Assembly: GCA_024516035.1 (NCBI GenBank)
Contig: CM044964.1
Location: 831,667 to 895,666, forward strand
Source: Bactericera cockerelli
Taxonomy: Eukaryota; Arthropoda; Insecta; Hemiptera; Triozidae
Length of the DNA: 64,000 nucleotides
Reading direction: 5' to 3'
Made by a program: the position numbers and the translations under genes. The notes under the pieces were generated by a model. It was not told where the DNA came from. It worked only from the letters and a program-made list of their open reading frames with translations, and did not search any database. Below, one piece after another: positions 14,767-61,672 of this stretch (position 1 is the first letter of the stretch; every line of letters starts with the position of its first letter).

Positions 14767-14807
14767 AATTTGAAAATTCCTCACGAGAATTTTCCATTAT
14801 TTTTGAA

Positions 14808-15545: not shown

Positions 15546-15551
15546 CAAAGA

Positions 15552-16313: not shown

Positions 16314-16315
16314 AC

Positions 16316-34700: not shown

Positions 34701-37700
34701 AGGCTGGGTGATTCCTGTGGATATGCTCATGAGGAAAGGAGGCATGGAAGTGATTGACTGTAAGTATTAAGTTCAAACCGTCTGTCTCAGTACTTTAGTA
34801 GTCAAGGCGTCGCCGTCGGTCTGAGGTCGTGGTTTCGAAACCCAGCTGGGATATGACAGGTTATCCTAACATTTAAGATTTTGAACACATAATAATGACA
34901 CCAAGTGGTTAACGCGCTAGTCTGGTATTCGAGGTAGCGTAAGGATCTGTTGGTTTGAATCCCACCCAGTGCATGAATTTTTTTGTCATTAATATGAGTT
35001 TGTGACCACATAATAATAAGACTCTGAGGGTTAGGTGCTAGAAAATTCTTTGAAGAGTATTATTAATACCACAATTATTGTTGGAATTCAAGGACATAAA
35101 CGTTCTAATTGGTTAGTGTGATAAGTGTGTTATTTATTTTTCTCTCTACTTTAGATGTTGTGTGGTCCACTGATACCTTGTCAGGAAAAATAAGTAGCTG
35201 TTTTAATTGGAACAGTGACCAGTGGCAGACTATTGGACAAAATAAGAAATTGTATTACATAGTAAAAAGAAATGGAAAAGTCATATGTATGTGCTGCCCA
35301 ATGAAATTTGTGATATATTAAAACAAATAACACTGGTTAGTTAATTTATAACACCTACTCTACTTCATTTTTCAGGCAACAATCATGTCAAGTCTGCCAT
35401 CAACTTTTTTGGTCCATCCTGTGCCGTCAACGCCCTGGTCAACAAATACAACCCCATAGGTGACAATTCGGACCGCCTCTGTGACCTCTGTATTGGCAGG
35501 GTACCTGGAGAGAAATGCACATCTGCGGATCCATATGCTGGGTTTGAAGGAGCCTTCCGCTGTCTCGTGGAGAAGGGGGACATTGCTTTCCTCAAGCATA
35601 GCACAGTAGCTGAGATGATTGATGGGAAGATTGATGCCTGTAAGTGGAAAAATATGTTATTAATCAATTTGGAATTTGTATTTATTAAAAAATATGAGGA
35701 TAGGAGTTATTACCACAATCTAATTTAAATCAAGTTAAACAAAAGCACCTCAAAAATACTTGCATTTGTCATTGATTTTTTATTATGTTAGTCATATTAA
35801 TTTTTAAAGTATGCTGGTTACAACAACAATAAATCCGACCTCAGTAGCTTGATCGATAAGGCGGCGGACTTGTAACCTGGAGGTCGGTGGTTCTAGTCCC
35901 GGTTTCAGCGTAGATTTAGTAAAGCGAGTTTGAGTAGTTGTGATATCACGAAAGTGATTAACACAAATATGATAACTACAACAACAATAAATTATATTCT
36001 AATTTTCCAGATGGCCTGACCAAGGAAAACAAAAATACTTGCATTTTTCATTGATCTTTTATTTTGTTAGTCATTCTGATTTTTAAAGTATGCTGGTTAC
36101 AACAACAATAAATTATATTCCATTTGTCCTTGATTTTTTATTTTGTTAGTCATACTAATTTTTAAAGTATGCTGGTTACAAGAAGAATAAATTATATTCT
36201 AATTTTTCCAGATGGCCTGACCAAGGAAAGCAAAAATATGTAGGTACTTGCATTTGTCACTGATTTTTTATTTTGTTAGTCATTCTGATTTTTTATTTTG
36301 TTTCTCATACTGATTTTTAAAGTATGCTGGTTACAACAACAATAAATTATATTCTATGAATATTCCAGATGGCCTGACCAAGGAAAGCAAAAATACTTGC
36401 ATTTGTCATTGATTTTTTATTTTGTTAGTCATTCTGATTTTTTATTTTGTTTCTCATACTGATTTTTAAAGTATGCTGGTTACAACAGCAATAAATTACA
36501 TTCTAATTGTCCAGATGGCCTCACCAAGGAAAGAAAAAATACTTGCATTTGTCATTGAATTTTTATTTTGTTTCTCATACTGATTTTTAAAGTATGCTGG
36601 TTACAACAGCAATAAATTACATTCTATGAATATTCCAGACGGCCTGACCAAGGAAAGCTTCGAGCTCCTATGTCCGGACGGCACGCGCGCCCCCGTGGAC
36701 AACTACCAGAGCTGCAGCTGGGGCCAGGCGCCCTCCAATGCCGTCATGACCACCTCGGCCAAGTCTGCGCAGACGCGGAAGCACTACCAGCAGTTCCTGA
36801 TGAAGAGCGTGCAGCTGTTCGGGGGCCCCGTGCCGCCCGTGCAGAGACTACAGGGTGAGTGTGTATACAATGAGTCTGGCTGGGGGACTATAAACAGCAA
36901 GCACTACCAGCAGTTCCTGATGAAGAGCGTGCAGCTGTTCGGGGGCCCCGTGCAGAGACTACAGGGTGAGTGTATATACAATGAGTCTGGCTGGGGGACT
37001 ATAAACAGCAAGCACTACCAGCAGTTCCTGATGAAGAGCGTGCAGCTGTTTGGAGGCCCCGTGCCGCCCGTGCAGAGACTACAGGGTGAGGGACTGTTTT
37101 TTCTTCTTTGTATTTTCAGTATGTATATCAATATAATCAGTATAAACAGAAAAGTGAGAAGTTGTACTAGATGTACATGAATATCAGAACATACCTGGAC
37201 AGCTGTTTCGAGCTTATTTGCTCTCATCAGCAGGTAATAGTTCTGAATAATATCCATGTCACCAACTAACCTCTCTATTTTAATCAGTATAAACAGAAAA
37301 TATACAATGAGTCTGGCTGGGGGACTATAAACAGGGAGTCGACCAGCAGTCTAGCCTGGGGACTATAAACAGGGAGTAGACCAGCATTGGCTTGGTTCTG
37401 GGGGCCCTTGTCAATTATTAGCCTCCTTGTAAAGACAGTGGTAGAAGTGCTGAGTCATTCCTCCACTGTCTGGCTACCATCGTTCACGATGACGCCACCC
37501 TATGATGATGATGATATACAATGAGTCTGGCTGGGGGACTAGATAGATAGATAGAAAAAATATTTGTATTTATTGTATAATAGTTACAAAGTGAGGATTG
37601 ACAATAAGATATAGCTAAGTCTGCGCAGACGCGCAAGCACTACCAGCAGTTCCTGATGAAGAGCGTGCAGCTGTTCGGGGGCCCCGTGCCGCCCGTGCAG

Positions 37701-40700
37701 AGACTACAGGGTGAGTGTGTATACAATGAGTCTGGCTGGGGGACTATAAACAGCAAGCACTACCAGCAGTTCCTGATGAAGAGCGTGCAGCTGTTTGGTG
37801 GTCCCGTGCAGAGACTACAGGGTGAGTGTATATACAATGAGTCTGGCTGGGGGACTATAAACAGCAAGCACTACCAGCAGTTCCTGATGAAGAGCGTGCA
37901 GCTGTTCGGGGGCCCCGTGCAGAGACTACAGGTGAGTGTATATACAATGAGTCTGGCTGGGGGACTATAAACAGCAAGCTCTACCAGCAGTTCCTGATGA
38001 AGAGCGTGCAGCTGTTCGGGGGCCCCGTGCAGAGACTACAGGGTGAGTGTATATACAATGAGTCTGGCTGGGGGACTATAAACAGCAAGCTCTACCAGCA
38101 GTTCCTGATGAAGAGCGTGCAGCTGTTCGGGGGCCCCGTGCAGAGACTACAGGGTGAGTGTATATACAATGAGTCTGGCTGGGGGACTATAAACAGCAAG
38201 CTCTACCAGCAGTTCCTGATGAAGAGCGTGCAGCTGTTCGGGGGCCCCGTGCAGAGACTACAGGGTGAGTGTATATACAATGAGTCTGGCTGGGGGACTA
38301 TAAACAGCAAGCACTACCAGCAGTTCCTGATGAAGAGCGTGCAGCTGTTCGGGGGCCCCGTGCCGCCCGTGCAGAGACTACAGGGTGAGTCACTTTTTTC
38401 TTCTTTGTATTTTCAGTATGTATGTATGGTTTTATTTGTGGTGAAGCACAAGGCCTCTTCACAATTTTTGTGGGTAGCTCAGCATTACTAAGAGCCTCCT
38501 GTACTTTTCGAATTATTCTATTACATCAATTTCTTTTTACTCTGGTAATGCCGCCACTGGTCGTTACTCATACAAGTAACTACTCATTTTTCCTCACGAG
38601 GTATGAGTGGACCCCGAACACCCAAGAACAGAGCAGAAAAAATCCTGCTCCGCTGGGGATCGAACCCAGGTCACCGTGCGTGCAATGCCTAGCGCGCTAA
38701 CTCACTCTGCCACGGTGACTTCTTTTTTTCAGTATGTATATACAATGAGTCTGGCTGGGGGACTAGATAGATAGATAGATAGAAAAAATATTGTATTTAT
38801 TGTATAATCCCAGACAGCACGGCAGTTGACTTCCAGTCTGGATTTAAGGTGGAAATATCCAGGTGTATAAAGTCAACTGGACCTCCAACTGTCCCGACAG
38901 CTGGATTTTTCCATCATGGATTAAATCAGTTGACCAGCCACCTGGATATTTCCAACAAAAATCCATCTAGACTCAGTCACCTGGGCAGTCAGCTGGAAAT
39001 ATAACGACTCTCTCCAGCTAGGACATAACTAGAATTTAGTCAGTTGACCAGTCAGCTGGAAATGTTCCATATTTTTCCAGTTTACATAAAACGCGTCCTT
39101 TGTTGAAGACGCCATCTTTGATCTTTCGTAATTTCAGAATCATTGTGATATTGGTGATATGGTGATTGTAAATTGTTTTAAATAATTAATATTTCTTTTA
39201 AATATTAGGTATTTCATTTAGTTTTGAACATTTTTAAATACAAATATCATTTTAATTAGTTTTGATCTTTTTTATAACTACTGGAAGTGTTTAGATAAAA
39301 CTCGTCCTTTAAAGGACGAGTTTTATCAACAATTGTTGAAGGAAATTCAGAAATTGTGATATTTTTGTGACAAATTGTGAATTGTTTTAAATAATTAATA
39401 ATTCTCTTAAATATAATAGGTATTTCATTTATTTGAACATATTTTAAATACAAATAATATTTTAATTAGTTTTGAACATCTTTTTTATAACTATGAAAGT
39501 GTTTACTTTGTCATTTCTGAACTCCAAATTTGCTTTCGAGATGTTTCAAAAAATAGTTCTTAAGTTTGTCTAAATCGTGACAGAAGGAAAGGAGAGGACA
39601 AGAAGCAGTTAATACTGGATCACCTTTTTCATCTGACAATAACCATCCATTTCTAGAGACATCCACTTGGACCCTAATGAACTTTCTGCACTCTGCTGTT
39701 CCTGGACCTTCAGTGGGATTAACACCTTCAGTTCACTTGGAATCATACCAGCTACCCATATTAATCTCACCTAGCCTAGCCAAGCCAAAGCAGGACCATG
39801 AATGCTAGTCTCATGTGTTAAGGGAAACAGAATTTTTTATGCTCAAGATCTCTTGACCATAGGTTGGCTAAAAAAAGGTTCTGGTTCAAGCAAAGGAACA
39901 GCTGAATGCATAGTGCTAGATAGTGAAATTTTTCACTCTGTGGATTTTATTTAGATGTACAATACTTTATAAAATATAAATATTCATTATAAAATGAATA
40001 TTTCACTGATAGGTGGTTCTGCCACACTAAAAAATGATGTTTACTTTGTGACATGCTTCCTGATTACTTGATTTAAAATTAATTGGCCAATTTACTGTGC
40101 ACTGTTCATAATAACAATAATAACTATTGTGCTCTCTCTACCACCTTATTACTATGAAGGCCCTTAAATTTTGAGTTAATTTTATATCTATTTAAAAAAA
40201 GTGTTCCACACTATTGTGTTTTATAATTTCACTAGTCTTAACAAGTCAATTTTGTTTTAATTTAAGTATAACAATGTTTTTTGGTAATAATTCTCAAAGC
40301 AAACAACCCAGCAATTCTAATTAGCCACAGCAGTATATAAATTGTCATGAAGGATTACAAATACATAATAACATTCACTAATCCATGTTCAACCCCGTTA
40401 GACATTGCTTAACTTTTGCAATTTCATGAAAACTGGTGTATTCCATGCCCCATCTTCATTTTCTGCTGGCTATTAGTTTATTTCTTTGTTATTTTTGGTT
40501 TCTCAAAAGAAATATATTTTAATTTACATAGTATTATTATTTTATTGTGATTATGTACATGTTATGAGCATATTTTATAATTGGATATCATTATTTTATT
40601 TCTATACTAGCTAAAACCTGGCATTTTGTCACCATTAAGGTATTTTCTCATGGCCGGTGTCCCAATAAAAATAATAATAACACTTTTAACTGGAAGGTAA

Positions 40701-43700
40701 CCACCAGGTAAGGTTAAAGGTTATGCTCAAAGCATTTTCTACCACCTAACCCTCAGAGTCTTATTATTATGTGGTCACAACCATAATGAGGAAAAAATTG
40801 AAACAACGGAACCCTACGCTAGGTTGATTATCTGACTAGCGCATTAACCACTTGATTACCAGTGCACTTGAAAATTGTATTAGATATTTTAATTTTGATA
40901 ATTTTCTAGTATGTTGAAGGTGGCTTAGGGGGGGTGAACTCTCAGTGAGAGTACCGTTTGGTATTGTAACCCCAAGAGGACATAGTTAGCCAGACATGCA
41001 TAACTTTGAGTTTTATATATAGAGATTATACCTACTTAGAAATACTTGTGATACATTGGTACAAGGTCTTGTGACATGATGGAAATTTGATAGTGCATTT
41101 TACACTTTTGGGACAATTTTTTTAATAATAAACACTCTTATTGTAAAAATATAATAATGTTAAAGAGTCTTATTTGAATTGTGTTGTGTAAAACAGATTA
41201 GTTATTTTCTTTTTCTTTCCAACTTTCTATATAAAAAAAATTATACTCAAAATTGTGTGTGTGTACGTGTTAAAAAAACCTATTTAAAATTTATTACTTT
41301 ATTTTTATACAAAAAAAATATTCTTCATGAGATTTGAATGCATGGCCTCTAAATTAAATAACTGAAATTGAATTTATGCCTAATATACATTTGTTTCTAG
41401 TATTTTTATTACTATTATTATTTGAAAAAAAAAATGCATATAATGGGATTCGAACCCACGACCTCAAAACCAAGAGCGTAGCATTTGATTATTATGTAGT
41501 ATAATGTACAGTATAGGTAAATAGGTATGTCAACATTGTGGTAGTGAGTTACTACCCATCCACTAGAGAGCGCTACAAGTAGCTGGAAATAAGTGGAACA
41601 AATCCAGTTGACTTTGGGCAACTGACTTCCAGTTAAAAGTTGGGTTACTTTCCAGTTCATTTCCAGTTGATTTCCAGGTGGAGGTCAGGTGGAAGGTGGA
41701 AATCTCCAGCTGATTTCCAGGTGGGCAAGTAGACTTTTTCCACCTAACAGTATGGTATACATCCAGTTGACTGTGCTGTCTGGGATAGTTACAAAGTGAG
41801 GATTGACAATAAGATATAGCTATTGTGATACAATTAAATTTTCAAACATAAATAACACCTTGAAAATAAAAAACAAATTACCAACGATAGAAAATATTTC
41901 CGTACCTAAATATTATGATAAAAAATTTCCGACTAAATTTCTAATATAAAGGAAAGTGGCTGGGGGACTCTAAACAGGGAGTAGACCAGCAGTCTGGCTG
42001 GGGGACTGTAAACAGGGAGTAGACCAGCAGTCTGGCTGGGGGACTGTAAACAGGGAGTAGACCAGCAGTCTGGCTGGGGGACTATAAACAGGGCGTAGAC
42101 CAGCAGTCTGGCTGGGGGACTATAAACAGGGAGTAGACCAGCAGTCTGGCTGGGGGACTATAAACATGAAGTAGACCAGCAGTCGGGCTAGGGACTATAA
42201 ACAGGGCGTAGACCAGCAGTCTGGCTGGGGGACTATAAACAGGGAGTAGACCAGCAGTCTGGCTGGGGGACTATAAACAGGGAGTATATCAGCAGTCTGG
42301 CTGGGTCATAAATAGGGAGAAGACCAGCATTGGCTTGGTTCTGGAGGCCCTTGTCAATTATTAGCCTCCTTGTGAAGACAGTGGTAGAATTGGTGAGTCA
42401 TTCCTCCACTGTCTGGCTACCATCGTTCACGATGACGCCACAATATGATGATGATATACAATGTACATGTACATATACATATACTTATGCATGAAATGTT
42501 TCATTTAGTTTTATTAAATATAAAAAAAACTTGTCCCAGGGACCATCGTTCCGGAAGGGAACCAATTATGCAAGAAGCATTTCCTCTTTGAATGGCTAGA
42601 CCAATTTTTTGGTAAAGAAAAGAAAAGTAAAGAAATTTCCAATCAATTTCTTTCCCAAATGGTCTAACCATTTCTTAGATTCAAATGTCGATGAAAAAAA
42701 TTACAGGATGGATATTCAAGAAAAAATATAATCTGCTCATTGAGCACTTAGGTCTGACCTCCCTTCAGGATAGGACGAAAGAAGTGCAGTTAAAATTCCT
42801 GCAAAACATGTTAATCATGTCTATGTAAATGAGAGGGTGGGTTTTAGAGAACCATACCACAGGCTTAGATCTATAGGTGCAAAGAAACTACAAATGCCTA
42901 ATAGGAGGGAAACCTACATGTTCAAATCGCCTATTATACACGCAATATCACTGTACAATGAGCTAGAGATCCATTCTGATGATGCTTGCTAATGCCATGA
43001 ATAGATTTTCTCCTTTCTCTATTAATTTTGTTTTTTTTTTTAAAATATTCTTATTATTTTTTTTTCTCTATTTTCTTTTGTACCAAATTATTGTCAGAAT
43101 TATTGCTGGATATTATGGTTGTCGGTAGTAATACTTGCAACCTCATCTCCAGTGTAGACATATGTGTGTAAAAAAGAAGAAAAAAACATTTGTTTCGATG
43201 ATAATTAGTAAAAAATTGATTTTCACTGTCTGAAATCACAAATAAGGTGTGGTTCTGTAAGGAATATATTATGTAAAAGTTTTCTACAAAAAAAAAAACT
43301 TTTTAAGCAGGAAACCTCTACAAGTAGGAACATATAGCTGATCCCTTGTGTTCATGGAGTTGGACATTATACCATAGCTAATTGTTATTCCAATGAATTT
43401 CAATGTGCCGATAGCTCAGTGGGAAAGGCGGCACTGTGTGAATCCAGAGATTCCAGAGGTCGCGGGTTCGAAATCCAGCCGGGACAAGACAAGTTATCCT
43501 CCTATTTGGGATTTTCACCACATAATAATACGTCTTGGGCTTACTGCTGGAGTAATGGGACTATATAGTTCTAATCGGGCAGTATAAATAAGGCGATATT
43601 ATTATTATACATTCCATTTATATCTAGCTTCTAAGTTAGTAAAGAGGATACATTTATGTTTATCTCATTACAACTATATCTCTTATTTTAAACAATTCAC

Positions 43701-49700: not shown

Positions 49701-52700
49701 AGAAAATAGTCATCGTAAATCTAACAGGGCACGTTTGCATCAAAATCCATCGAGAGGTACTCATTAATAGAGTAAAAAGTTTTTGTTTTTAGGACATTTT
49801 CAATATACATATAATTTGAATGCAGGAAAATGTAGGTCGCGTACAGATGGTTGTAATTTATTAAAAAAATAATACCCCATAATGATTCATAGCGTTTTTG
49901 ACCTTAGTCACCCGATGACGAATAGGTAGGTACCAAATTTTTTAATCAAGGTAATAATAATAATATCGCCTTATTTATACTGCCCGATTAAGACTACTTA
50001 AGTCTCATTATTCCAGAAGTAAGCCCAAGACGTATTATTATGTGGTAAAAATCCCAATGTGGTAAAAATCATGTCCCGGCTGGGTTTCGAACCCGCGACA
50101 TCTAGAATCTCTGGATTCACAGAGTGCCGCCTTTACCACTGAACGACCGTGACATTGAAATACATTAGAATAAAAATAAGCTATGGTATACTGTCCATTG
50201 TCCAACTCCATGAACAGGAACTGTTGGAATCCGTCCGTTCGAATCCCACCCAGTGCATAAATTTTTATTATCATGCATGTATAGAATAACAATAAGCTAT
50301 GGTACACTGTCCAAGTGTCCATTGTCCAACTCCATGGACAGGAACTGTTGGAATCCGTCCGTTCGAATCCCACCCAGTGTTCGAATCCCATATAGTACGT
50401 GTAATTTTTATTATTATTATTATAACTATACCCTCAGGCAAGAACACCTGCCACACGGGCCTGTACACCGCGCCGCTGGATTTTCCCCATGGCGTTTCTC
50501 CTCTCCAACGGCTGGATGCGGCCCTACGGCTGCGACAGTATCCGGGCGGCGGCTGAGTACTTCTCCAAGTCCTGCGTGCCGGGGGCCCTCAGCGCGGAGT
50601 ACAACCCCGGCCTCCCCTATGACAACCTGTGTGACCTGTGCCACGGGGCCAGCTATAGGTACTGTCGGCGAGACGCGAGTGAAGACTACTATGGCTACAC
50701 AGGTGAGATACTGTTACTGTGAATATTATACTGTGTGACCTGTGTCATGGGGCCAGCTATCGGTACTGTCGGCGAGACGCGAGTGAGGACTACTATGGCT
50801 ACACAGGTGAGATACTGTTACTGTGAATATTATACTGTGTGACCTGTGTCATGGGGCCAGGTATCGGTACTGTCGGCGAGACGCGAGTGAAGACTACTAT
50901 GGCTACACAGGTGAGATACTGTTGCTGCTACTACTGTGAATATTATACTGTGTGACCTGTGTCACGGGGCCAGCTATCGGTACTGTCGTCGAGACGCGAG
51001 TGAAGACTACTATGGCTACACAGGTGAGATACTGTTACTGTGAATATTATACTGTGTGACCTGTGTCATGGGGCCAGCTATCGGTACTGTCGTCGAGACG
51101 CGAGTGAAGACTACTATGGCTACACAGGTGAGATACTGTTACTGTGAATAGTATACTGTGTGACCTGTGTCATGGGGCCAGCTATAGGTACTGTCGGCGA
51201 GACGCGAGTGAAGACTACTATGGCTACACAGGTGAGACATCTATGTTGGAACCGGGACTTGAACCACCGACCTCCAGGTTACAAGTCCGTTACAAGCCTT
51301 CCCGATTACAGGTTTCAAGCCCTATCGATAAAGCTACTGAGGTCGGATCCTTTTAATTTATTTTGGTTGAAAAATATATTAATTTATTTAGATCAAATTA
51401 AACCCTCTTTCCATTTATTATTATTATTATAGTAAGCTTTATTAGGTAGAACAAAAAATATATTCAGCAAAATACAATGAAATTATAGAGAAAAACAAAA
51501 AGATTGAATAAAGATACAAGAAAAAAAAATCTGGTGTAAACATCACACGACTTTCCTTATCTCCCAAAAAGGAGTCGAATTCCGCCACTGGTGACTGAAC
51601 GGTAACAGATAACTAAAAATCAATGCCAAATTCGTGATCAGCACTTCAAAATCATTTAATTTGATATGTCACAACCCCCATCTTGGATGAATAATAAAAA
51701 AGTTAGTCCAATCGGGTCCCCCTACAATACCGGTAAATTGGGGCCGGTTTCCAAAAAGTTAAAGATATCAAAAAAATGATCAGAGTGAACCCCTATTATT
51801 TTTTTAATCTGAGAAAATGTTGTTCTCGAACTTTTTTTGTATCTTTAACCAATTCAAAGAAGCGGTGCTTGCGGCCAATTGAATTGAATATTTGCGAATA
51901 AAATTGAATTGAATTGAATATTTGCGGCCCTGCGGCCGCAGAATGCGGCCGATTTCAACCAAAAGTTTCATGGTTCGTCTGGTGTATAAAATTAATTACC
52001 ATATCAAATTTCAAGTCTCTAGCTCTTACCGTTCTTGAGATATCCTGTTCACACACACACAGACACACAGACAGACACACAGACAGACACACAGACAGAC
52101 GCACGGACCAATGGCTGAAAACCACTTTTTTGGTATCCTGAGGCTATGATTCGTCCAGAAATGTGAATAGCTGGGTAGGTCAAATTTTCGACGAATACAA
52201 TACTTTCCTTATTATAGGATAAGGAAAGTAAAAAGAGAATGAAGTAAATGTACTACCTAAAGGGCGGGGCTATTGACTGTGGCAATCTCTTCCACCCAAC
52301 CCTTTGGGTGGAAGAAATTACCGGTAAGGTGCCCAATACACTTGTCGCATTTCCTTTTGAATTGCTGTGGAAATTCGTTCGTTGAGATCATAATAATAAT
52401 AATTACCTCTCGCTTGGTTTGCAGGAGCTTTCCGCTGTCTGATAGAAGGCGGAGGTCACGTCGCCTTTGTGAAGCACACCACAGTTCTGGAGAATACAGA
52501 CGGCAAGAGGAAAGACTGGTGGGCTCGCAATGCTCTGAAGGAGGACTTTGAGCTGCTGTGTCCTGACGGTAAGTTAGAGGAAGGAGTGGTGGAAGACTTT
52601 GAGCTACTGTGTCCTGATGGTAAGTTAGAGGAAGGAGTGGTGGAAGACTTTGAGCTGCTGTGTCCTGATGGTAAGTTAGAGGAAGGAGTGGTGGAAGACT

Positions 52701-53996
52701 TTGAGCTGCTGTGTCCTGATGGTAAGTTAGAGGAAGGAGTGGTGGAAGACTTTGAGCTGCTGTGTCCTGATGGTAAGTTAGAGGAAGGAGTGGTGGAAGA
52801 CTTTGAGCTGCTGTGTCCTGATGGTAAGTTAGAGGAAGGAGTGGTGGGCTCTGAAGGAAGACTTTGAGCTGCTGTGTCCTGATGGTAAGTTAGAGGAAGG
52901 AGTGGTGGAAGACTTTGAGCTGCTGTGTCCTGATGGTAAGTTAGAGGAAGGAGTGGTGGTCTCTGAAGGAAGACTTTGAGCTGCTGTGTCCTGATGGTAA
53001 GTTAGAGGAAGGAGTGGTGGGCTTTGAAGGAGGACTTTGAGCTGCTGTGTCCTGATGGTAAGTTAGAGGAAGGAGTGGTGAGCTCGGAAGAAGACTTTGA
53101 GCTGCTGTGTCCTGATGGTAAGTTAGAGGAAGGAGTGGTGGTCTCTGAAGGAAGACTTTGAGCTGCTGTGTCCTGATGGTAAGTTAGAGGAAGGAGTGGT
53201 GGGCTTTGAAGGAAAACTTTGAGCTGCTGTGTCCTGATGGTAAGTTAGAGGAAGGAGTGGTGGAAGACTTTGAGCTGCTGTGTCCTGATGGTAAGTTAGA
53301 GGAAGGAGTGGTGGGCTCTGAAGGGGGACTTTGAGCTGCTGTGTCCTGATGGTAAGTTAGAGGAAGGAGTGGTGAAAGACTTTGTGCTGCTGTGTCCTGA
53401 TGGTAAGTTAGAGGAAGGAGTGGTGGGCTCTGAAGGAGGACTTTGAGCTGCTGTGTCCTGATGGTAAGTTAGAGGAAGGAGTGGTGGGCTCTGAAGGAAG
53501 ATTTTGAGCTGCTGTGTCCTGATGGTAAGTTAGAGGAAGGAGTGGTGGGCTCTGAAGGAAGATTTTGAGCTGCTGTGTCCTGATGGTAAGTAGTTGGACC
53601 AACTAAGAACAGCAAGAGCTATAGGAATAAGAGAAAGTGCTAAGCAAGTACATAAACAAAACCGGGTTTATCATTGAAAACGGGATCCACTGTTGTGGGA
53701 TTACAGTACATCCTGAGAAAAAATGCAGGATTATGAAATAAAGCGCATATAATGTGTAACAAATTTGTAAATATTGATCATTACCTTCAGGAAAAATCAC
53801 CGCTGATGAAATATTTAAAAAAGAACGCTTTTTGACGCCGCCATTTTGTTTTCGTGTATTTTTAGTAAGGACCTCTCGAAGGAACATGCCAAATTTGTTG
53901 CTTTCCTCATGAAGTGCATTATTTCGGTATCTTAGTGACGTCTGACCAACGAGACTATATTATCTCCCTTGCCTGAATCCCATATTAGCTTATTAT

Positions 53997-54031
<35 letters not shown>

Positions 54032-57000
54032 TTTATTTTTTTTACAAAACAATCAATCATCAAGAACAACAAAATATATAACAATAAATTAAAAAAACAA
54101 TAAACTTAGAAATATGTACAAAAAGAAATATTATTTTTTATTACAATTGTTTTGTAATCCGGGGCGAAGTTAATGCCTTAGGCATTCTCTGCCACTTAAC
54201 CCCGGCTTTTGTTCAACCTCATGGTTGAGGTTTGTAGGGTGGAGCACGTTTTTTATGGCTGGATGCCCTTCCTAACGCCAACGATTCTATTTTGGTTTTA
54301 ACGTCCTGATCTGGACGGGGTGTTACCCTCAATTCGCTGGGAATCGTACCAGCTACCCACATTAACCTCACCTAGCCTGGGTAGGGCCGGAAATGCCAGC
54401 CTCACGTGTTTGGGGGGAACAGAATTTTCTTCGAAAAGTCTGCTCAAACCGGAGATCGAACTCGGGATCTCTGGACTACGGGCAGTAGTCACAACCATTA
54501 CGCCACGGAGACTGGGTGCCTATTTTTATTTTTTCTTATTAATTTTTTTAATCTTATCAATTTTATTAATGAATCTTATCAATTTTAATAATAGATTTTT
54601 TTCTTTACAATCAACAGAGATTAAAAAAAATATCAGTATTATTTACAAAATAAAATATAGAAAAAAAATATTTAAATTTAAATGTACAATTGTCTTGTAA
54701 TCCGGGACGAAGTTAATGCCTTAGGCATTCTCTGCCACTTAACCCCGGAGTTAGATTAACCAACTCCGGTCGAGAACTGAAGCACCCCTTCCGCATAGAA
54801 AAACCATACACTGCCTCAAAAGAAAATGGCGGACACCATGGTAATAGCATATGATGTCCGCCATTTTCTTTTGATGAAGTGCTTCACAGAAGATGCCTAG
54901 TGAATATATATATATATATATATATTATTCACTAGGCATCTTCTGCCAAGATGCCTAGTGCCCAGAGAGCATTGGGAGTTCTTTATTCATTCATTGTTTT
55001 TAAAATCTTAGATTATTATCATAGGCGATGATGTTGATGGAAATAATGATTATTATATACAAAAAGAAATAGAAATGTAAAGGCTAGTGTAATAATAATT
55101 AACACAGAAACTAGAACAAGTCTGCATCCCACGACACAAGGACCATACTTCATAGGTATGGCCCTTATAGTGTGGGATGACGACAGCCAAAAGAAACTAG
55201 CATAAGTTCAGTAAATATATTAAAATATATATTTTTAAATATATATATCTTAATTTAGTTCGTTAAAAAAAAAAGAAAAAAAAAGCATAAGTTCAGTTAA
55301 AAATATTATGAATTATGTAAACTGTCATTGTTATATAATTAAATATTTGAACCATTTACTTGATATGTATTTAAAAAAAATGTATTATTTTGACTCGTAT
55401 TTCCCAGGCACCCGCGCTCATCTACCGGACTACGCCCGATGCAACCTCGGCCGTGTGAAAGCCAATGCTATCGTGGCAAGAGGTGGCGACCAGTACAACC
55501 TGACGCAACTCAATGCCTACATCAACCTATTTGTGTATGCCCAGCAGTTCTACGCTCGCAAGGATGTTGACGAGTTCAGGTAAGTGCATGCTCAGTTCAT
55601 GTTCATGTATTTCAGTGCATGTAAAGTCCATGTTCATGTAGTTAAGTTCATGCTTATGTCACAAGCATGAGGTTAGTACAAACTCAATGCCTACATCAAC
55701 CTGTTTGTGTATGCCCAGCAGTTCTACGCTCGCAAGGACGTTGACGAGTTCAGGTAAGTGCATGCTAAGTTCATGTTCATGTATTTGAGTGCATGTAAAG
55801 TCCATGTTCATGTAGTTAAGTTCATGCTTATGTCACAAGCATGAGGTTAGTACAAACTCAATGCCTACATGAACCTGTTTGTGTATGCCCAGCAGTTCTA
55901 CGCTCGCAAAGATGTTGACGAGTTCAGGTAAGTGCATGCTCAGTTCATGTTCATGTATTTCAGTGCATGTAAAGTTCATGTTCATGTAGTTAAGTCCATG
56001 TACCTAAGAGCGTGTAATTTTCATGTTCATGTAGTTAAGTTCATGCTCATGTCACAAGCATGAAGTTAGTACAAACTCAGCCAACTCAATGCCTACATGA
56101 ACCTGTTTGTGTATGCCCAGCAGTTCTACGCTCGCAAGGATGTTGACGAGTTCAGGTAAGTGCATGCTCAGTTCATGTTCGTGTATTTCAGTGCATGTAA
56201 AGTCCATGTTCATGTAGTTAAGTTCATGCTTATGTCACAAGCATGAGGTTAGTACAAACTCAATGCCTACATCAACCTGTTTGTGTATGCCCAGCAGTTC
56301 TACGCTCGCAAGGATGTTGACGAGTTCAGGTAAGTGCATGCTTAGTTCATGTTCATGTATTTGAGTGCATGTAAAGTCCATGTTCATCTAGTTGAAGTCA
56401 TGTTAAGCCCATGTAGTTAAGTGCGTGTAATGTTCATGTTCATGTAGTTAAGTTCATGCTTATGTCAGTATGTCACAAGCATGAGATTAGTACATAATCA
56501 CCCATCTCAATGCCTGTATCAATCTGTTTGTGAATGATAATTTTCTAGTCATGGTAGCTCAGTAGTCACGGTCTAGCAATCCAGAGGTAGCGGGTTCGAA
56601 TCCCAGCCGGGACATGAATCCCAACAAAATGGGAGGATAACTTCCTCCCAATTGGAATTTTACATCATAATACATAATTATTGAGATTAGCGCTGGAATA
56701 CTGTGAGTCTTTTAAAAATATGTGCTCATCGGGCAGTACAAATAAGGCGATATTATTTTTATATTATTTTTTCAAAATAAATAAGTAGTCCTTACTTGTT
56801 TAATAATACATTATAATCGATTTTTTTTTTTTACAATTGATTTTCCAAATTCTTAGACAAAACAGTCACTGACTGAAACCTATTTTTGTTGTTTGGCATG
56901 CTAATATTTTAAAAAGGCTCTCTCATCTCACACTTTTTTTCTTGCACTCTCTCTCTCTCTCTTTCGCCATCTCTCTCGCGCCCAACACCAATTTTTATTT

Positions 57001-57430
57001 TGTAGTACAAAGTGACCGGTGGCCTCGCCCGAGGACAAACATTTTATGCTACTTGGTAGTATAAATTTTTAGCTTGGGCACTCAGGACTATAAAATGAAT
57101 GTCCTCTTACGAGGACATTGGGCGCGAAGAGGCTATTATAACTTGTAATAATAATAGCTTCTATGATACGATCTATTATCTCTCTCTGGTTTCAGCTTCA
57201 GCATGTTCTCCTCCCCGGGCCCCTACTCGGATCTGATCTTCCAGGACGCCACCCGTCAGCTTCGGGTGATTCCGCCCGAGGCTCGGTGGTACTCGGACTA
57301 CCTCGGCGAGGACTTCATGCGGGCTCGGCGCCTCGTAGACTGCCACTCCAGCGCTGTGACGTCATCGCTCTCGCTGGTTGCCTTGGTAACCAGTTTGTGC
57401 GTTGCGCTGTTGTTTATTACGCGTCCCTAG
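31668..57430 (+). CDS. Tsf2: Transferrin 2 / melanotransferrin-like, 14 exons
   Basis: Bilobal transferrin of about 839 residues. Exons: 31668-31719, 33099-33268, 34109-34241, 34470-34523, 34583-34759, 35376-35639, 36639-36854, 44062-44276, 45560-45799, 49226-49406, 50438-50702, 52425-52568, 55408-55579, 57196-57430. Phases agree throughout except in exon 11. N-lobe: exons 2-8; C-lobe: exons 9-14. A signal peptide (exons 1-2) and a hydrophobic C terminus suggest an extracellular, GPI-anchored protein. Several stretches ([48 protein letters not shown]) are of the Tsf2 type. In Drosophila, Tsf2 is needed for septate-junction assembly. Canonical iron ligands are incomplete in both lobes. Introns 7, 9, 11, 12 and 13 begin with tandem copies of the preceding exon end. 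Because of the exon 11 frameshift, this assembly does not encode an intact protein unless it is an error. Confidence 0.9.
32029..32628. mobile_element. pogo/Tigger-like remnant in intron 1
   Basis: The ends acaatagaaattg (left) and caatttctactgt (right) are near-inverse. Inner motifs (tttataatgacacca, ggctataaggaacaaat, gtcccttgaagtttgttgc) resemble non-autonomous pogo/Tigger ends. No coding; boundaries approximate. Confidence 0.6.
33099..33268 (+). CDS. Tsf2: Tsf2 exon 2: start of N-lobe
   Basis: Acceptor ttgtttag; donor GTGAGT. Contains [18 protein letters not shown], the classic lobe start with its first two cysteines, and potential N-glycosylation sites NLT and NES. Phase 1 in, 0 out. 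Confidence 0.92.
33445..33575. repeat. 13-bp minisatellite in intron 2
   Basis: Ten or so units of 'aattatgtaacga' and 'tattatgtaacga'. Confidence 0.85.
34109..34241 (+). CDS. Tsf2: Tsf2 exon 3: N-lobe Asp ligand region
   Basis: [11 protein letters not shown], then [20 protein letters not shown]. The Asp in LDAG aligns with iron ligand Asp63 of human serum transferrin. Phase 0 in, 1 out; donor GTAATA. Confidence 0.93.
34470..34523 (+). CDS. Tsf2: Tsf2 exon 4: 54-nt micro-like exon
   Basis: Short exon encoding [17 protein letters not shown] between a TTTTCAG acceptor and a GTTTGT donor (weak). Phase 1 in and out, so skipping it would keep frame. Confidence 0.8.
34583..34759 (+). CDS. Tsf2: Tsf2 exon 5: N-lobe Tyr and anion region
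   Basis: [12 protein letters not shown] supplies the Tyr95-equivalent. [18 protein letters not shown] aligns with the CHTG-x-GRSAGW anion site but has Ala and Thr where the carbonate-binding Thr and Arg are expected. Donor GTAAGT. Confidence 0.93.
34789..35075 (+). repeat. SINE C fragment then SINE E, intron 5
   Basis: 34789-34890 has box B gtggtttcgaaacccagc and a family C body. 34899-35075 is a family E copy (gtggttaacgcgctagtctg, gttggtttgaatcccaccc, gagtttgtgaccacataata). Confidence 0.75.
35159..35290 (+). repeat. SINE family A remnant, intron 5
   Basis: Decayed body: ggtccactgataccttgtca, ggaaaaataagtagct, gaccagtggcagactatt, gaaatggaaaagtcat. It mimics an exon because an acceptor-like ctactttag precedes it. 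Confidence 0.7.
35376..35639 (+). CDS. Tsf2: Tsf2 exon 6: N-lobe second domain
   Basis: [31 protein letters not shown], then [18 protein letters not shown] and IAFLKHSTV. The Tyr188-equivalent position (GY.GAF in iron-binding lobes) is Phe here. Phase 1 in and out; donor GTAAGT. Confidence 0.94.
35835..35976 (+). repeat. tRNA-derived SINE, family B, with 16-bp TSD
   Basis: Full-length, well-preserved copy (gacctcagtagcttgatcga, ggtggttctagtcccgg, gatatcacgaaagtgattaa). It is flanked by the perfect repeat tacaacaacaataaat at 35819-35834 and 35977-35992. It sits inside the first copy of the exon 7 acceptor array, so that array is older than this insertion. Confidence 0.92.
35998..36660 (+). 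repeat. Exon 7 acceptor array, five 3' splice-site copies
   Basis: The intron 6 end plus the first codons of exon 7 are repeated. 'ccagatggcctgaccaagga' or a close variant occurs with the exon-like part starting at 36011, 36212, 36369 and 36515; the real exon is at 36639 (ccagacggcctgaccaagg). Units (about 120-200 bp) carry gcatttgtcattgatttttt, attttgttagtcattctgat and gctggttacaacaacaataa. Only the last copy continues into full exon sequence. Confidence 0.92.
36639..36854 (+). CDS. Tsf2: Tsf2 exon 7: end of N-lobe core
   Basis: [20 protein letters not shown], then [10 protein letters not shown], where Asn replaces the usual His249-type ligand, then [15 protein letters not shown]. The acceptor (tattccag) is the last of five similar ones. 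The donor CAGG|GTGAGT is the first of ten. Phase 1 in and out. Confidence 0.88.
36778..37090 (+). repeat. Exon 7 donor array, block 1 (3 copies)
   Basis: The unit is exon-derived (agcactaccagcagttcctg ... cagagactacag), followed by GTGAGTGT and a spacer (tatacaatgagtctggctgg, gggactataaacagca). The first copy is the true exon end. Donors fall near 36855, 36965 and 37086. Some copies lack the 'ccgcccgtg' hexamer region. Confidence 0.93.
37300..37512 (+). repeat. Interspersed repeat, family F, intron 7
   Basis: Contains gtctggctgggggactataa, gttctgggggcccttgtcaa, ttattagcctccttgtaaag and ctccactgtctggctaccat. Its first part is the same 'ctggctgggggactataaac' found as spacer in the exon 7 arrays. 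Confidence 0.8.
37620..38395 (+). repeat. Exon 7 donor array, block 2 (7 copies)
   Basis: Begins mid-exon (aagtctgcgcagacgcgcaa) and repeats the same 110-119-bp unit seven times; one copy has lost a G at the donor. The sequence after the last copy (acttttttcttctttgtatt, ttcagtatgtat) matches what follows block 1, so the block is also a larger duplication. Confidence 0.93.
38430..38721 (-). repeat. tRNA-derived SINE, family A, intron 7
   Basis: Full-length minus copy: tttgtggtgaagcacaaggc, gccgccactggtcgttact, cctcacgaggtatgagtgga, box B gggttcgatccccagcgg on the minus strand. Confidence 0.9.
39294..39327. repeat. 34-bp perfect palindrome
   Basis: gataaaactcgtccttt followed by its exact complement. 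It lies between two ~150-bp direct repeats (39165-39293 and 39345-39500), inside the DNA transposon. Confidence 0.93.
40610..41030. repeat. Repeat ending in 'tatatatagagat', with nested SINE E
   Basis: Starts actagctaaaacctggcatt and ends gttttatatatagagatta, the same start/end style as 60752-61016. A minus family E SINE lies at 40670-40855. Confidence 0.5.
41957..42305 (+). repeat. 40-bp minisatellite in intron 7, about 9 copies
   Basis: Unit: gtctggctgggggactataa + acagggagtagaccagca. It is an expansion of the first part of repeat F, which continues intact at 42280-42445. Confidence 0.92.
42280..42445 (+). repeat. Interspersed repeat, family F
   Basis: cattggcttggttctggagg, cccttgtcaattattagcct, ctccactgtctggctaccat, ttcacgatgacgccac. 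Confidence 0.8.
42446..43402. other. Intron 7 stretch, retroelement 3'-end-like fragment
   Basis: 42600-43000 has out-of-frame coding-like traces (gcagttaaaattcctgcaaa, gcgcaatatcactgtacaatg) reminiscent of the C-terminal tail of LINE proteins. No intact frame. 43010-43080 is T-rich. Confidence 0.35.
43403..43610 (+). repeat. tRNA-derived SINE, family C, intron 7
   Basis: Box A gatagctcagtgggaaaggc, box B cgggttcgaaatccagccgg, body ttaccgctggagtaat-type and gggcagtataaataaggcga. Confidence 0.88.
43738..44027 (-). repeat. tRNA-derived SINE, family A, intron 7
   Basis: Ends 35 bp before exon 8. Full-length minus copy with box B and box A intact on the minus strand. Confidence 0.9.
44062..44276 (+). 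CDS. Tsf2: Tsf2 exon 8: inter-lobe region, GC donor
   Basis: [20 protein letters not shown], then [18 protein letters not shown]. Phase arithmetic puts the exon end at CAG (44274-44276), followed by GCGAGT: a GC-AG intron with otherwise strong donor bases. A GT alternative in the right phase is not visible nearby. Acceptor tttcgcag. Confidence 0.85.
44585..44790 (+). repeat. SINE family E, decayed, intron 8
   Basis: tagtagtcaagtgtttaagg, ggatccgatggtttgtatct, tatgaccacataataataat. Box B is weakened. Confidence 0.65.
45020..45262. repeat. Family F (+) then family A fragment (-), intron 8
   Basis: 45020-45140 is the right part of repeat F. 45170-45262 is the tail of a family A SINE (ttgtggtgaagcacaaggcc, tgggtagcgcagcattac). 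Confidence 0.75.
45318..45551 (+). repeat. 39-bp minisatellite and C22 at exon 9 acceptor
   Basis: Six units of taaccatctctaaccaaata + ccccaccctttccacc. The last unit runs into about 20 C, then tctccacag and exon 9. The array supplies the polypyrimidine tract and candidate branchpoints (ctaac) many times over. Confidence 0.93.
45560..45799 (+). CDS. Tsf2: Tsf2 exon 9: start of C-lobe
   Basis: [20 protein letters not shown], then [20 protein letters not shown] and [14 protein letters not shown]. 80 codons, phase 0 both ends. Acceptor tctccacag follows a long C run. Donor CAG|GTAAGG is the first of 37 tandem copies. Confidence 0.92.
45758..47619 (+). repeat. Exon 9 donor array, 37 copies
   Basis: The unit is 49-52 bp: the last 42 nt of exon 9 (atgagctgtcacaaggcaca ... 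ctgtatgcag) plus 7-10 nt of intron (gtaaggct, gtaagagag, gtaagggag, gtgaggct). The first copy is the true exon end. Copies start about every 51 bp from 45757 to 47570. Nearly all donors are CAG|GTAAG; a few are GTGAG and one is GTAAAG. Variation between units shows it is not a simple copy artefact. Confidence 0.96.
47740..47882. mobile_element. MITE-like hairpin, intron 9
   Basis: 143 bp. Outer arms agacactttctactctccga / ggagaatggaaagtgtct; inner arms cacaacgcactctgattggt / its exact complement. No coding. Confidence 0.85.
47925..48083 (-). repeat. tRNA-headed SINE, family G, intron 9
   Basis: Body cacccagcctgagttgggac. On the minus strand a tRNA-like head with box A ctccgtggtgtaagggttgt and a weak box B. 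Confidence 0.75.
48330..48835 (+). repeat. Family G SINE tails, two copies, intron 9
   Basis: 48345-48500 and 48638-48800: tggtacgattcccagc, aatggagggtaaaaccccc, gttaggaagggcatccagct and accaaccaacctcaaccata. Both lack the tRNA head. Confidence 0.7.
48870..49190 (-). repeat. tRNA-headed SINE, family G, full length
   Basis: Ends 36 bp before exon 10. From the tail (ttcaacctcatggttgaggt) through the shared central domain (cattaacctcacccagcctg) to the head (minus strand: gtctccgtggcgtaatggtt, box A). Confidence 0.88.
49226..49406 (+). CDS. Tsf2: Tsf2 exon 10: C-lobe Asp and Tyr ligands
   Basis: [20 protein letters not shown] keeps the Asp; [20 protein letters not shown] keeps the first Tyr. 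Acceptor acttctgcag, donor GTAAGT. Phase 0 in, 1 out. No donor array follows. Confidence 0.94.
49948..50155 (-). repeat. tRNA-derived SINE, family C, intron 10
   Basis: gcccgattaagactacttaa, cggctgggtttcgaacccgc, gtgccgcctttaccactgaa; minus orientation. Confidence 0.87.
50160..50400 (+). repeat. ~115-bp direct duplication of a SINE E head
   Basis: ataagctatggtatactgtc, ctccatgaacaggaactgtt and cgttcgaatcccacccagtg occur twice (about 50165-50258 and 50285-50380). Confidence 0.75.
50438..50702 (+). CDS. Tsf2: Tsf2 exon 11: frameshifted in this assembly
   Basis: [11 protein letters not shown] in one frame, then [38 protein letters not shown] and [14 protein letters not shown] in another. The exon is 265 nt; an intact version should be a multiple of three. 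The break falls at about 50465-50492 where an AGW-type motif is expected. Short runs of G and C there look like several one-base losses and one gain (net -2). Either homopolymer consensus errors or a real lesion. Confidence 0.88.
50628..51236 (+). repeat. Exon 11 donor array, 6 copies
   Basis: The ~105-bp unit is the last ~75 nt of exon 11 (ctgtgtgacctgtgtcatgg, cggtactgtcggcgagacgc, actactatggctacacag) plus GTGAGATACTGTTACTGTGA and aatattat. Six GTGAGA/GTGAGAC donors lie between 50703 and 51231. Confidence 0.94.
51243..51349 (-). repeat. SINE family B, head only with internal duplication
   Basis: Minus copy: gggacttgaaccaccgacct, atcgataaagctactgaggt. A partial second box-B-like segment (ttacaagccttcccgattac) shows an internal duplication. 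Confidence 0.75.
51518..52235 (-). repeat. Interspersed repeat, family H, intron 11
   Basis: Near end-to-end inverted match to 7243-7915, from tggtgtaaacatcacacgac to ttattataggataaggaaag. An internal (CA)/(CAGA)n lies at 52050-52103. Confidence 0.78.
52425..52568 (+). CDS. Tsf2: Tsf2 exon 12: C-lobe second Tyr context
   Basis: [20 protein letters not shown], then [20 protein letters not shown] and LLCPD. Together with exon 11 it forms YYGYTGAFRC, keeping the second Tyr ligand. Phase 1 in and out. Donor GTAAGT is the first of 19. Confidence 0.93.
52535..53592 (+). repeat. Exon 12 donor array, 19 copies
   Basis: The unit of 51 bp (gactttgagctgctgtgtcc, tgatg, then gtaagttagaggaaggagtg, gtggaa) or ~61 bp (with ggctctgaagga added). 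It holds the last ~25 nt of exon 12 and the donor. The first six 51-bp units stay open in the exon reading frame, giving a 17-residue repeat [17 protein letters not shown]. Donors are all GTAAGT. Confidence 0.95.
53593..53995. other. Intron 12 stretch, nothing recognised
   Basis: No repeat family or coding supported. A 'gccgccattttgttttcg' segment at 53837 loosely resembles the hairpin at 54816-54874. Confidence 0.5.
54000..54512 (-). repeat. Family J piece fused to family G SINE, intron 12
   Basis: A T-run (54000-54027), then repeat J to 54206. A minus-strand family G SINE then runs from its tail (ttcaacctcatggttgaggt) to its tRNA head (cattacgccacggagact). Confidence 0.82.
54600..54755 (-). 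repeat. Interspersed repeat, family J
   Basis: ctttacaatcaacagagatt, acaattgtcttgtaatccgg, gacgaagttaatgccttagg. Confidence 0.7.
54816..54874. repeat. Hairpin with perfect 20-bp arms
   Basis: tcaaaagaaaatggcggaca and its exact complement, with a 19-bp loop. MITE-like. Confidence 0.88.
54888..54944. repeat. Hairpin with 19-bp arms and (AT)n loop
   Basis: agaagatgcctagtgaata / tattcactaggcatcttct around a (TA)n loop. It lies 14 bp from the previous hairpin, so a cruciform or secondary-structure cluster is possible. A third, weaker inverted pair (catcccac / gtgggatg) spans about 55125-55172. Confidence 0.85.
55408..55579 (+). CDS. Tsf2: Tsf2 exon 13: C-lobe
   Basis: [20 protein letters not shown], where Asn sits at the usual His-ligand position, then [20 protein letters not shown] and VDEF. 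Phase 1 in, 2 out. Acceptor tttcccag; donor GTAAGT, the first of five. Confidence 0.93.
55490..56345 (+). repeat. Exon 13 donor array, 5 copies
   Basis: The unit of about 173-229 bp contains the last ~75 nt of exon 13 (actcaatgcctacatcaacc, tatgcccagcagttctacgc, gttgacgagttcag). GTAAGTGCATG and a spacer of repeated ttcatgttcatgta / catgtaaagtccatg units follow. Donors lie near 55580, 55755, 55928, 56157 and 56330. The spacer is itself a small minisatellite of 'catgtt'. Confidence 0.94.
56539..56765 (+). repeat. tRNA-derived SINE, family C, intron 13
   Basis: ggtagctcagtagtcacggt (box A), gcgggttcgaatcccagccg (box B), gggcagtacaaataaggcga. Confidence 0.86.
57196..57430 (+). CDS. Tsf2: Tsf2 exon 14: C terminus with GPI-type tail
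   Basis: [30 protein letters not shown] closes the last disulphide, then small residues (HSSAVTSS) and a hydrophobic end ([17 protein letters not shown]) before TAG. Small residues followed by a terminal hydrophobic stretch fit a GPI-attachment signal, as in vertebrate melanotransferrin. The end of this exon is tandemly repeated downstream. Confidence 0.9.
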
Positions 57431-58260
57431 ATTGTAAACAACGGTTGCTATGGAAACAAGCTCACTGGTACTCCATGTGAACTCGCCGCCTCACGACTGC
57501 CACTCCGGCGCTGTGACGTCATCGCTCTCGCTGGTTGCCTTGGTAACCAGTTTGTGCGTTGCGCTGTTGTTTATTACGCGTCCCTAGAATGTAAACAACG
57601 GTTGCTATGCAAACAAGCTCGCTGGTAATCCATGCGAGCTTGGCGCCTCGTAGACTGCCACTCCGGCGCTGTGACGTCATCGCACTCGCTGGTTGCCTTG
57701 GTAACCAGTTTGTGCGTTGCGCTGCTGTTGAATGCGCGTCACTAGAGCTAATTGTAAACAACAGTTGCTATGGAAACAAGCTCACTGGTACTCCATGTGA
57801 ACTCGCCGCCTCACGACTGCCACTCCGGCGCTGTGACGTCATCGCTCTCGCTGGTTGCCTTGGTAACCAGTTTGTGCGTTGCGCTTTTGTTAAATACGCG
57901 TCCCTAGAATGTAAACAACGGTTGCTATGGAAACAAGCTCACTGGTACTCCATGTGAACTCGCCGCCTCACGACTGCCACTCCGGCGCTGTGACGTCATC
58001 GCTCTCGCTGGTTGCCTTGGTAACCAGTTTGTGCGATGTGCTGTTGTTTATTACGCGTCCCTAGAATGTAAACAACGGTTGCTATGGAAACAAGCTCGCT
58101 GGTAATCCATGCGAGCTTGGCGCCTCCTAGACTGCCATTTTCGGCGCTGTGACGTCATCACACTCGCTGGTTGCCTTGGTTACCATCTTGTGCGTTGTGC
58201 TGCAGTTGAATGCGCGTCACTAGAGCTAATTGTAAACAATGGTTGTCATGGAATCGAGTA
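57336..58260 (+). repeat. Exon 14 3'-end array, 6 clear copies
   Basis: A unit of about 158 bp: cgctgtgacgtcatcgctct, gctggttgccttggtaacca, gtttgtgcgttgcgctgttg, ttacgcgtccctag (stop), then aatgtaaacaacggttgcta and caagctcactggtactccat. The first copy is the coding C terminus. Copies begin near 57352, 57509, 57667, 57828, 57987 and 58146. Each holds the palindrome tgacgtca. More decayed relatives continue to about 58700 (aatgtaaacaatggttgtca, ttgacgtcatgaatctcgct). Confidence 0.93.
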
Positions 58261-58709
58261 CTGGTTGCTATGCAACGCCTTCTACCTTGTACTATTGTTA
58301 AACTAGGGCTGAATTATAAGTAAAGGGACAATATCCTTTTACTCGGGCTATAGTGCGCTGTGATTGGTTGAAAATCCAAGTCAAGGGATAGTGTCTACCC
58401 ATATTAAATCTAATGCTATTTTATAATTTGGCCCTTAGTGTCACTAGATCTGAATGTAAACAATGGTTGTCATAGAAACAAGCTCATTTATCCAACAAGA
58501 ACTGCAAAGACTTCATAAGATTTGCTTGTTGCCATAGTAGCAATTTTGTTTACTTTATTTTTGTTAAATTTGGGTCACTAAAACATTGTTGACGTCATGA
58601 ATCTCGCTTGTTGCTTGAGCAACCATTTTTCGTCTTATATTGTCCTTTAATTTGATTAAGGGGTCTTATGTTTTGTCTGTTGTCATGACAACGAGCCTTC
58701 TGATGTTTT

Positions 58710-61655: not shown

Positions 61656-61672
61656 TCTATTTCTCTTATATC

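Follow-up and report, generated by a model that had tools for sequence, protein, structure and literature searches.

Variable internal tandem repeats at exon-intron boundaries have been described in human duplicated genes, where they reportedly can give rise to novel introns (PMC2812944, accessible text). Intron gain by tandem duplication of AGGT-containing sequence has been reported for ATP2A1 and, with multiple 24-bp copies, for two fission yeast genes (as cited in the accessible text of PMC4974935), and Drosophila cases appear in the accessible text of PMC2891723. Splice junctions are usually thought of as fixed and conserved. Here we describe a stretch of 64,000 nucleotides from the psyllid Bactericera cockerelli (contig CM044964.1, positions 831,667 to 895,666 of the forward strand; hereafter the window) with a Tsf2/melanotransferrin gene (Tsf2) in which splice junctions are instead units of unstable tandem arrays, as they are in several genes of this one genome. 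Units that span a junction are repeated 2- to 37-fold in Tsf2, kinesin, and myosin genes, and on balance we think that the extra copies are spliced out with the intron through use of the sites attached to the exon.

A tblastn search with the psyllid Tsf2 proteins P0001 and P0003 placed 12 coding exons of this gene in the window (c1–c12, Table 1); the count covers coding exons only. A first-pass annotation of the same DNA had used a 14-exon numbering, which these 12 coding exons replace and in which exon n corresponds to c(n-2). The protein encoded by the 3' half of the gene has 1156 relatives; among the best 120 of them, the closest comes from Cacopsylla melanoneura (81% identity), the next is 80% identical, and the protein from Diaphorina citri is 77% identical.

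Nine arrays (A1–A9) were defined by Tandem Repeats Finder (TRF), unit lists, and pattern counts, with donor counts that include the copy on the exon itself. This confirmed that the tandem repetition of Tsf2 splice junctions is real. TRF and unit lists reproduced the 10, 37, 6, 19, and 5 donor copies that the first-pass annotation had given for its exons 7, 9, 11, 12, and 13. By pattern count, the unit of intron end plus exon start before its exon 7 occurs 5 times and the repeated end of the last coding exon 6 times. The same annotation had held intron 8 to be free of arrays, which is incorrect because A3 sits there in front of the c7 acceptor.

The real acceptor of c5 is the last of the five A1 copies, each of which comprises an acceptor with about 25 bp of exon, and the copies in A4–A7 comprise a donor with 24–75 bp of exon end. 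The A2 array is itself duplicated as two blocks, and a piece of its unit is also found in A9. The A3 unit contains two CTAAC motifs and a C/T-rich tract, and this array ends about 20 bp before the c7 acceptor, short of the AG. By inspection, the units of different arrays are unrelated in sequence throughout Tsf2, kinesin, and myosin. The earlier proposal that the junction arrays arose independently is supported for several junctions by these differences in unit length and sequence, and by the presence of A3 in one of two gene copies (6 units vs 1, see below).

This anatomy bears on whether the arrays record introns gained when exon DNA with AGGT was duplicated in tandem (the Rogers model) or duplicated alternative exons. 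Several units do have AG/GT at their border (A4, A5, and A7; the slash marks the splice site), the borders being CAGG/GT in A2 and ACG/GT or ATG/GT in A6. The Rogers model invokes a purely exonic segment that becomes a new intron, whereas these units carry intron sequence past the splice site and the introns extend over kilobases, so the introns must have existed before the arrays. Mutually exclusive exons would be repeated whole, with an acceptor and a donor per copy; the copies found here consist of one splice site and a partial exon, with the A2 unit, in which an AG precedes the exon piece, as the single ambiguous case. We therefore find both versions hardly credible. The arrays also differ from introner-like elements, in which one family occupies many introns, since their units are unrelated.

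A genome search with P0001 (assembly of 565.0 Mb in 1032 contigs) revealed a full second Tsf2 gene (copy 2) at C10:1197151-1218000, 330 kb away and 92–97% identical to the window gene over most of its length. Copy 2 carries the arrays in different copy numbers (window/copy 2: A1 5/3, A2 10/2, A3 6/1, A4 37/27, A5 6/3, A6 19/20, A7 5/4), with A8 about equal in both (6 vs 5 pattern matches; 5.6 vs 5.7 copies by TRF). The order of the units is nearly conserved between the two genes in A6 (19 and 20 units) but not in the other arrays. Over ten exon pieces (c1, c9, and the end of c12 excluded) the genes differ by 21 synonymous codons and 1 non-synonymous codon, which argues that both copies are under selection or that they are alleles. 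A partial third Tsf2 at C10:293704-299127 (L042) contains c1–c4 and acceptor-type repeats with A1-like units; for the later exons no match at this place was listed in the P0001 genome search. All three copies lie near one scaffold end (C10:0.29-1.2 Mb of 30.7 Mb). Proximity to a telomere could promote minisatellites, but the kinesin and myosin arrays lie elsewhere.

Many genes in these searches form near-identical pairs 0.03–1.4 Mb apart on one chromosome, often inverted, which are likely to be either retained haplotypes or many local duplications. Copy 2 may therefore be the other haplotype placed in the scaffold, or it may be a paralogue. False tandem duplications of the haplotype kind have been reported for the Diaphorina citri v3 assembly (PMC11659978, accessible text). 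Could the arrays themselves be an artefact of an error-prone, haplotype-duplicated assembly? The frequency of such pairs would fit, and so would frame errors of the window gene in homopolymer-like runs of c9 (net 2 bases missing near 50460-50475) and of the signal-peptide exon c1 (one extra T, 33065-33110); copy 2 has neither error and reads through at each place. We give this explanation practically no credence, because a second assembled Tsf2 copy has the same arrays with other copy numbers and a nearly unchanged A6 order, because the units hold ordered, distinct variants, and because the same anatomy is found in unrelated genes.

Comparison of the two genes also showed that an exon end can change places with an array unit. 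In A8, the unit at the copy 2 exon end is closer to the third window unit (1.3% divergence) than to the unit at the exon end of the window gene (6.2%), and the predicted protein tails differ accordingly. Since the copy 2 exon end resembles an internal unit of the window, exon ends exchange with array units. In A4, the copy 2 exon has a base that recurs in the fourth unit of its own array and is absent from all window units. Units 1 and 2 of the copy 2 A5 array have identical exon parts, and a site in the copy 2 exon is common to a unit of its own array and not to the window exon.

Differences between exons and their copies comprise 20 synonymous and 11 non-synonymous changes (13 vs 4 without A6), with some entries of A2 and A6 dependent on gap placement. 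This synonymous excess over expectation was assessed under mutation models that range from flat to strongly biased, with P values between 7.6e-8 and 0.0026. If used, the extra donors would cause a frameshift or add a stop in 63 of 70 cases and leave the frame open in 2 (A2) and 5 (A6). The array copies as such are thus mostly not coding, yet they appear to be filtered by protein selection. Such coding constraint on mostly unreadable copies is predicted if units exchange with the exon. For A4, A5, and A7 we rejected the idea that the copies encode protein, since stops or frameshifts follow the first donor; judged by their frames, 2 extra donors in A2 and 5 in A6 could yield readable longer forms.

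The same counts speak to selection for redundant splice signals, by which many 5' splice sites would aid fidelity or block premature polyadenylation. Retention of GTAAG or GTGAG in 36 of the 37 A4 copies is what such selection would produce, but conservation of the donor does not exceed that of the exon-derived part, which is identical in 30 of 37 units. Acceptors are amplified too (A1, L070, L080, L084, and L086), which would add harmful competing sites. The first-pass annotation had considered selection for many U1 sites; with only 1–3 copies at several junctions of copy 2, and with reading broken at most extra donors, we judge an advantage of this kind very improbable.

That annotation had also treated the pattern as the property of one gene, which proved too narrow, as kinesin and myosin genes have junction arrays of the same anatomy (Table 1). 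Prevalence beyond Tsf2 was estimated from sampled loci of one assembly, in which 11 of 48 exons had junction repeats: 3 of 24 for kinesin, 8 of 20 for myosin, and 0 of 4 for TCP1. The kinesin sample consisted of the 30 best-scoring kinesin-domain loci minus 6 near-identical second copies, and the 20 myosin-head exons came from a batch of 13 and then 7 of 16. One myosin exon (L087) was taken out of strict order when its second copy was already suspect from its rows; without it the figures are 7 of 19 for myosin and 10 of 47 in total. Myosin arrays occupy 9 of 40 edges, in eight of the 20 exons. As in Tsf2, copy numbers differ between near-identical kinesin or myosin gene copies (7/1, 16/21, 5/1, and 3/1). 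Both the acceptor and the donor side are repeated in a kinesin exon outside the sample that was found through repeated rows (L074) and in myosin exon L084. The latter, with 4.6 acceptor copies and about 21 donors, is the strongest hint for an innermost-site rule, since with both sides repeated only the choice of the innermost sites would leave the exon intact.

A row-level screen, which misses units below about 25 residues, returned no repeated exon pieces for TCP1 (68 matches) or aldehyde dehydrogenase (12 scored), and none were present among the 93 P450 matches listed. Two candidates, L072 and L082, were dropped as junction arrays because they look like dispersed intron repeats (L072 as read, L082 by repeat size and spacing). 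Repeated myosin exon pieces at C11:3.716-3.727 Mb were not counted, as they resemble the alternative exons of muscle myosin. At L088 (C8:7839701-7841750), an ATTCT-type repeat of about 1.2 kb lies among the myosin acceptor copies; it is not found at the partner L087.

Are junctions preferred sites? Six of the nine listed Tsf2 arrays with a period of at least 30 have units that straddle a junction, compared with a mean of 0.76 in 200,000 uniform placements of the nine units, of which two trials reached 6; this comparison is descriptive, because the gene was chosen for its pattern. An edge test, with an edge defined as within 25 bp of a match end, was confined to the initial 37 loci of the kinesin and myosin genes; neither TCP1 nor the second batch of myosin exons entered it. 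Arrays of at least 2.8 copies touched an exon edge in 9 of 30 rows vs 3.0 expected (P 0.0013), where two of the nine rows (L083) are weak and some arrays were counted from two neighbouring loci. For all arrays the figure is 12 of 35 vs 4.0 expected, which includes L072 and L082. Kinesin alone shows a small excess (2 of 20 array rows). Per base, however, local direct repeats are no denser at edges than in introns (kinesin, 0.040 vs 0.038–0.042; myosin, 0.187 vs 0.212–0.230), and exon interiors are the only repeat-poor compartment. Comparison of junction repeats with chance had been proposed in the first-pass annotation; in this small sample the arrays exceed chance and the per-base density does not.

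The association with GC-rich exon ends suggested there is consistent with the data. All six Tsf2 exons that bear arrays rank above the other six in GC content (one-sided p 0.001), by a hair-thin gap between the lowest with an array (0.5497) and the highest without (0.5495). The 48 exons of other genes show a trend only (0.557 with arrays vs 0.517 without, p 0.077). Both GC tests were post hoc.

The main rival of the explanation that we favour is a junction-specific hotspot, in which exon-intron borders (GC-rich exon by AT-rich intron, R-loops, polymerase pausing, or nucleosome edges) would duplicate far more often than introns. The edge excess in kinesin, myosin, and Tsf2 and the GC-rich array exons of Tsf2 agree with it. 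So do the arrays present in only one of two near-identical copies, which sit at or beside junctions: A3, a kinesin acceptor array (L070 vs L069), myosin acceptor copies (L088 vs L087), and a myosin donor array (L087 vs L088). These four young arrays were noticed at junctions and not randomly drawn, the edge test contains the weak and doubly seen rows mentioned above, the GC association weakens outside Tsf2, and the repeat density of edges does not exceed that of the flanking introns. We regard such a hotspot as unlikely, though worth serious attention. The opposite view, that minisatellites are abundant and overlap exons by chance where selection tolerates it, draws on this uniform density, on the common intronic arrays, and on the edge test itself, in which 18 of 30 rows are kinesin loci away from edges. 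The Tsf2 and pooled edge excesses are difficult to reconcile with the absence of any junction link, and we consider this view improbable, more so than the hotspot.

The explanation that we favour would combine mutation with tolerance. Short tandem duplications may be frequent events throughout the genes, with exon edges rich in GC somewhat favoured. Duplications within an exon would be removed by selection, and those that span a junction would be tolerated, because choice of the innermost sites keeps the mRNA unchanged: exon definition would join the last acceptor to the first donor and so select the shortest exon. Slippage or unequal exchange could then lengthen or shorten the array and swap units between it and the exon. 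The exon would be the first, selected unit of a minisatellite, whose extra copies need no function.

Several points weigh against this explanation. In classic competition experiments between two equal donors, the one nearer the intron is often preferred, and in these arrays that choice would be wrong. Use of the exon-attached splice sites is likely, on the basis of protein conservation only. All 18 A6 copies keep E (in K-E-W-W) where the exon has D, and E is common to Cacopsylla and Diaphorina at this site, so A6 has kept an older exon state; together with the nearly conserved unit order of A6, this means that exchange with the exon is not constant. The joint of 2–5 bases from GTAAG to the next unit in A4 has nine forms, plus one unit without its GT, and variability beyond that of the rest of the unit is unexplained by slippage alone. 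The absence of arrays from the four sampled TCP1 exons and the two possible identities of copy 2 belong here as well. As a side observation, the A4 joints (45799-47619) are so much more variable than the remainder of the unit that they look as if made repeatedly and imprecisely.

Exon ends in this genome appear to be fast-changing DNA. A bolder proposal is that a running process amplifies splice junctions, such that about one-fifth to one-quarter of exons in some gene families carry minisatellites in which the exon end is itself the first or last unit. Spare copies in such a reservoir would continually replace coding exon ends, splice sites, and stop codons and be replaced by them, while innermost-site exon definition keeps most mRNAs unchanged. 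We hold this to be possible but lean slightly against it. If it is true, few parts of the genes would evolve faster than exon borders, and these borders would naturally supply new exon ends, introns, and protein tails.

Table 1. Coding exons and arrays of the window Tsf2 gene (window coordinates) and junction arrays of sampled kinesin and myosin exons
Feature	Position	Strand	Description	Basis
c1-c4	33065-33268, 34109-34240, ~34576-34764, 35376-35638	+	Edges without junction array	tblastn P0001/P0003, TRF
c5	36639..36854	+	Exon 7 of the first-pass annotation	tblastn
c6	44062..44276	+	GC donor CAG/GCGAGT, without array	tblastn
c7	45560..45799	+	Exon 9 of the first-pass annotation	tblastn
c8	49226..49407	+	Without array	tblastn
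c9	50438..50702	+	Exon 11 of the first-pass annotation	tblastn
c10	52425..52568	+	Exon 12 of the first-pass annotation	tblastn
c11	55408..55579	+	Exon 13 of the first-pass annotation	tblastn
c12	57196..57433	+	Last coding exon; its end is the first A8 unit	tblastn
A1	35979..36658	+	Acceptor array before c5, 5 copies of intron end + exon start (...TTCCAG/AYGGCCTGACCAAGGAAA)	TRF, pattern count
A2	36779..38387	+	c5 donor array, 10 copies, unit ~111 bp (exon end + GGTGAG + intron start)	TRF, unit list
A3	45324..45538	+	Intron-end array, 37 bp x 5.8	TRF
A4	45758..47619	+	c7 donor array, 37 copies: 42 bp exon end + GTAAG + variable 2-5 bp joint	TRF, unit list
A5	50627..51237	+	c9 donor array, 6 copies, ~104 bp	TRF, unit list
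A6	52540..53591	+	c10 donor array, 19 copies, 51 and 61 bp units	TRF, unit list
A7	55507..56500	+	c11 donor array, 5 copies (174-228 bp) + degenerate sixth start	TRF, unit list
A8	57316..58253	+	Last coding exon end with stop codon + 3' flank, 6 units, ~157 bp	TRF (5.6), pattern count
A9	41957..42329	+	38 bp x 9.9, deep in the intron after c5, off junction	TRF
Kinesin L052			Donor, 2 copies	
Kinesin L055			49 bp x 16, begins at donor, without exon sequence	
Kinesin L070			Acceptor + exon start, 52 bp x 7	
Myosin L080			Acceptor, at least 3 copies	
Myosin L081			Donor, 20 bp x 21	
Myosin L084			Acceptor x 4.6 + donor 22 bp x ~21, both sides of one exon	
Myosin L085			Donor, 2 copies	
Myosin L086			Acceptor x 3	
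Myosin L087			Donor, ~5 copies	
Myosin L093			Donor, 30 bp x 10	
Myosin L094			Donor, 36 bp x 7.6	

Outside the Tsf2 coding exons, the window contains further arrays of 63 bp x 15.6 (25451-26431) and 17 bp x 39 (61660-62324), and TRF lists many arrays in the window introns as well. A retroelement lies at 14739-18902, with a second frame that matches reverse transcriptase (PF00078), and a frame at 3735-4481 matches the flagellar C1a-32 CLAMP family (PF14769). Two 5S-rRNA-like elements (Rfam RF00001) at 6229-6350 (+) and 21539-21660 (-) are probably 5S-derived short interspersed elements. Elsewhere in the genome, C2:7621159-7665568 holds three transferrin-like genes with uninterrupted frames of 714 codons, apparently intronless.

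If splicing remains accurate when it meets 37 identical donors, or an exon whose acceptor and donor sides are both multiplied, these genes are a natural experiment on exon definition, and the choice of the spliceosome among many equal splice sites becomes open to direct test. Array units that change places with exon ends offer a concrete path to novel exon ends, stop codons, and protein tails. Junction arrays can also mislead gene prediction in genomes of this kind. In searches of open-access papers we found no report of junction-anchored minisatellites genome-wide or of the Tsf2 arrays, nor of recurrence across many junctions and genes of one genome, of two-sided exon arrays, or of exchange between exon ends and units.

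Among the described systems, the human boundary repeats, as far as the accessible text of their report goes, resemble the psyllid arrays in their position across exon-intron boundaries, in a repeat number that differs from one gene copy to another, and in their capacity to alter exon-intron structure; according to the same text they occur in paralogues from segmental duplications and often stay exonic. In the psyllid, by contrast, the unit carries the splice site, a single gene has seven junction-linked arrays, and arrays can affect an exon on its two sides. The cases of intron gain through AGGT duplication, in the portions of those reports that are accessible, likewise involve tandem copies of exon ends with splice motifs, in fission yeast more than two. 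The psyllid arrays differ from them in that the introns existed beforehand, the units include intron sequence and reach 37 copies, many junctions and genes are involved, and acceptors are repeated as well as donors. The arrays match minisatellites (variable number tandem repeats, VNTRs), which are built of head-to-tail units of about 10–100 or more bp, in that their units are joined head to tail in many copies and copy number differs between close copies (A1–A7; A8 about equal). They also have in common with minisatellites unit lengths of 20–230 bp, high and variable copy numbers, higher-order patterns, and unit exchange. What sets the psyllid arrays apart from minisatellites is that their first or last unit belongs to a conserved coding exon and contains the splice site of that exon.

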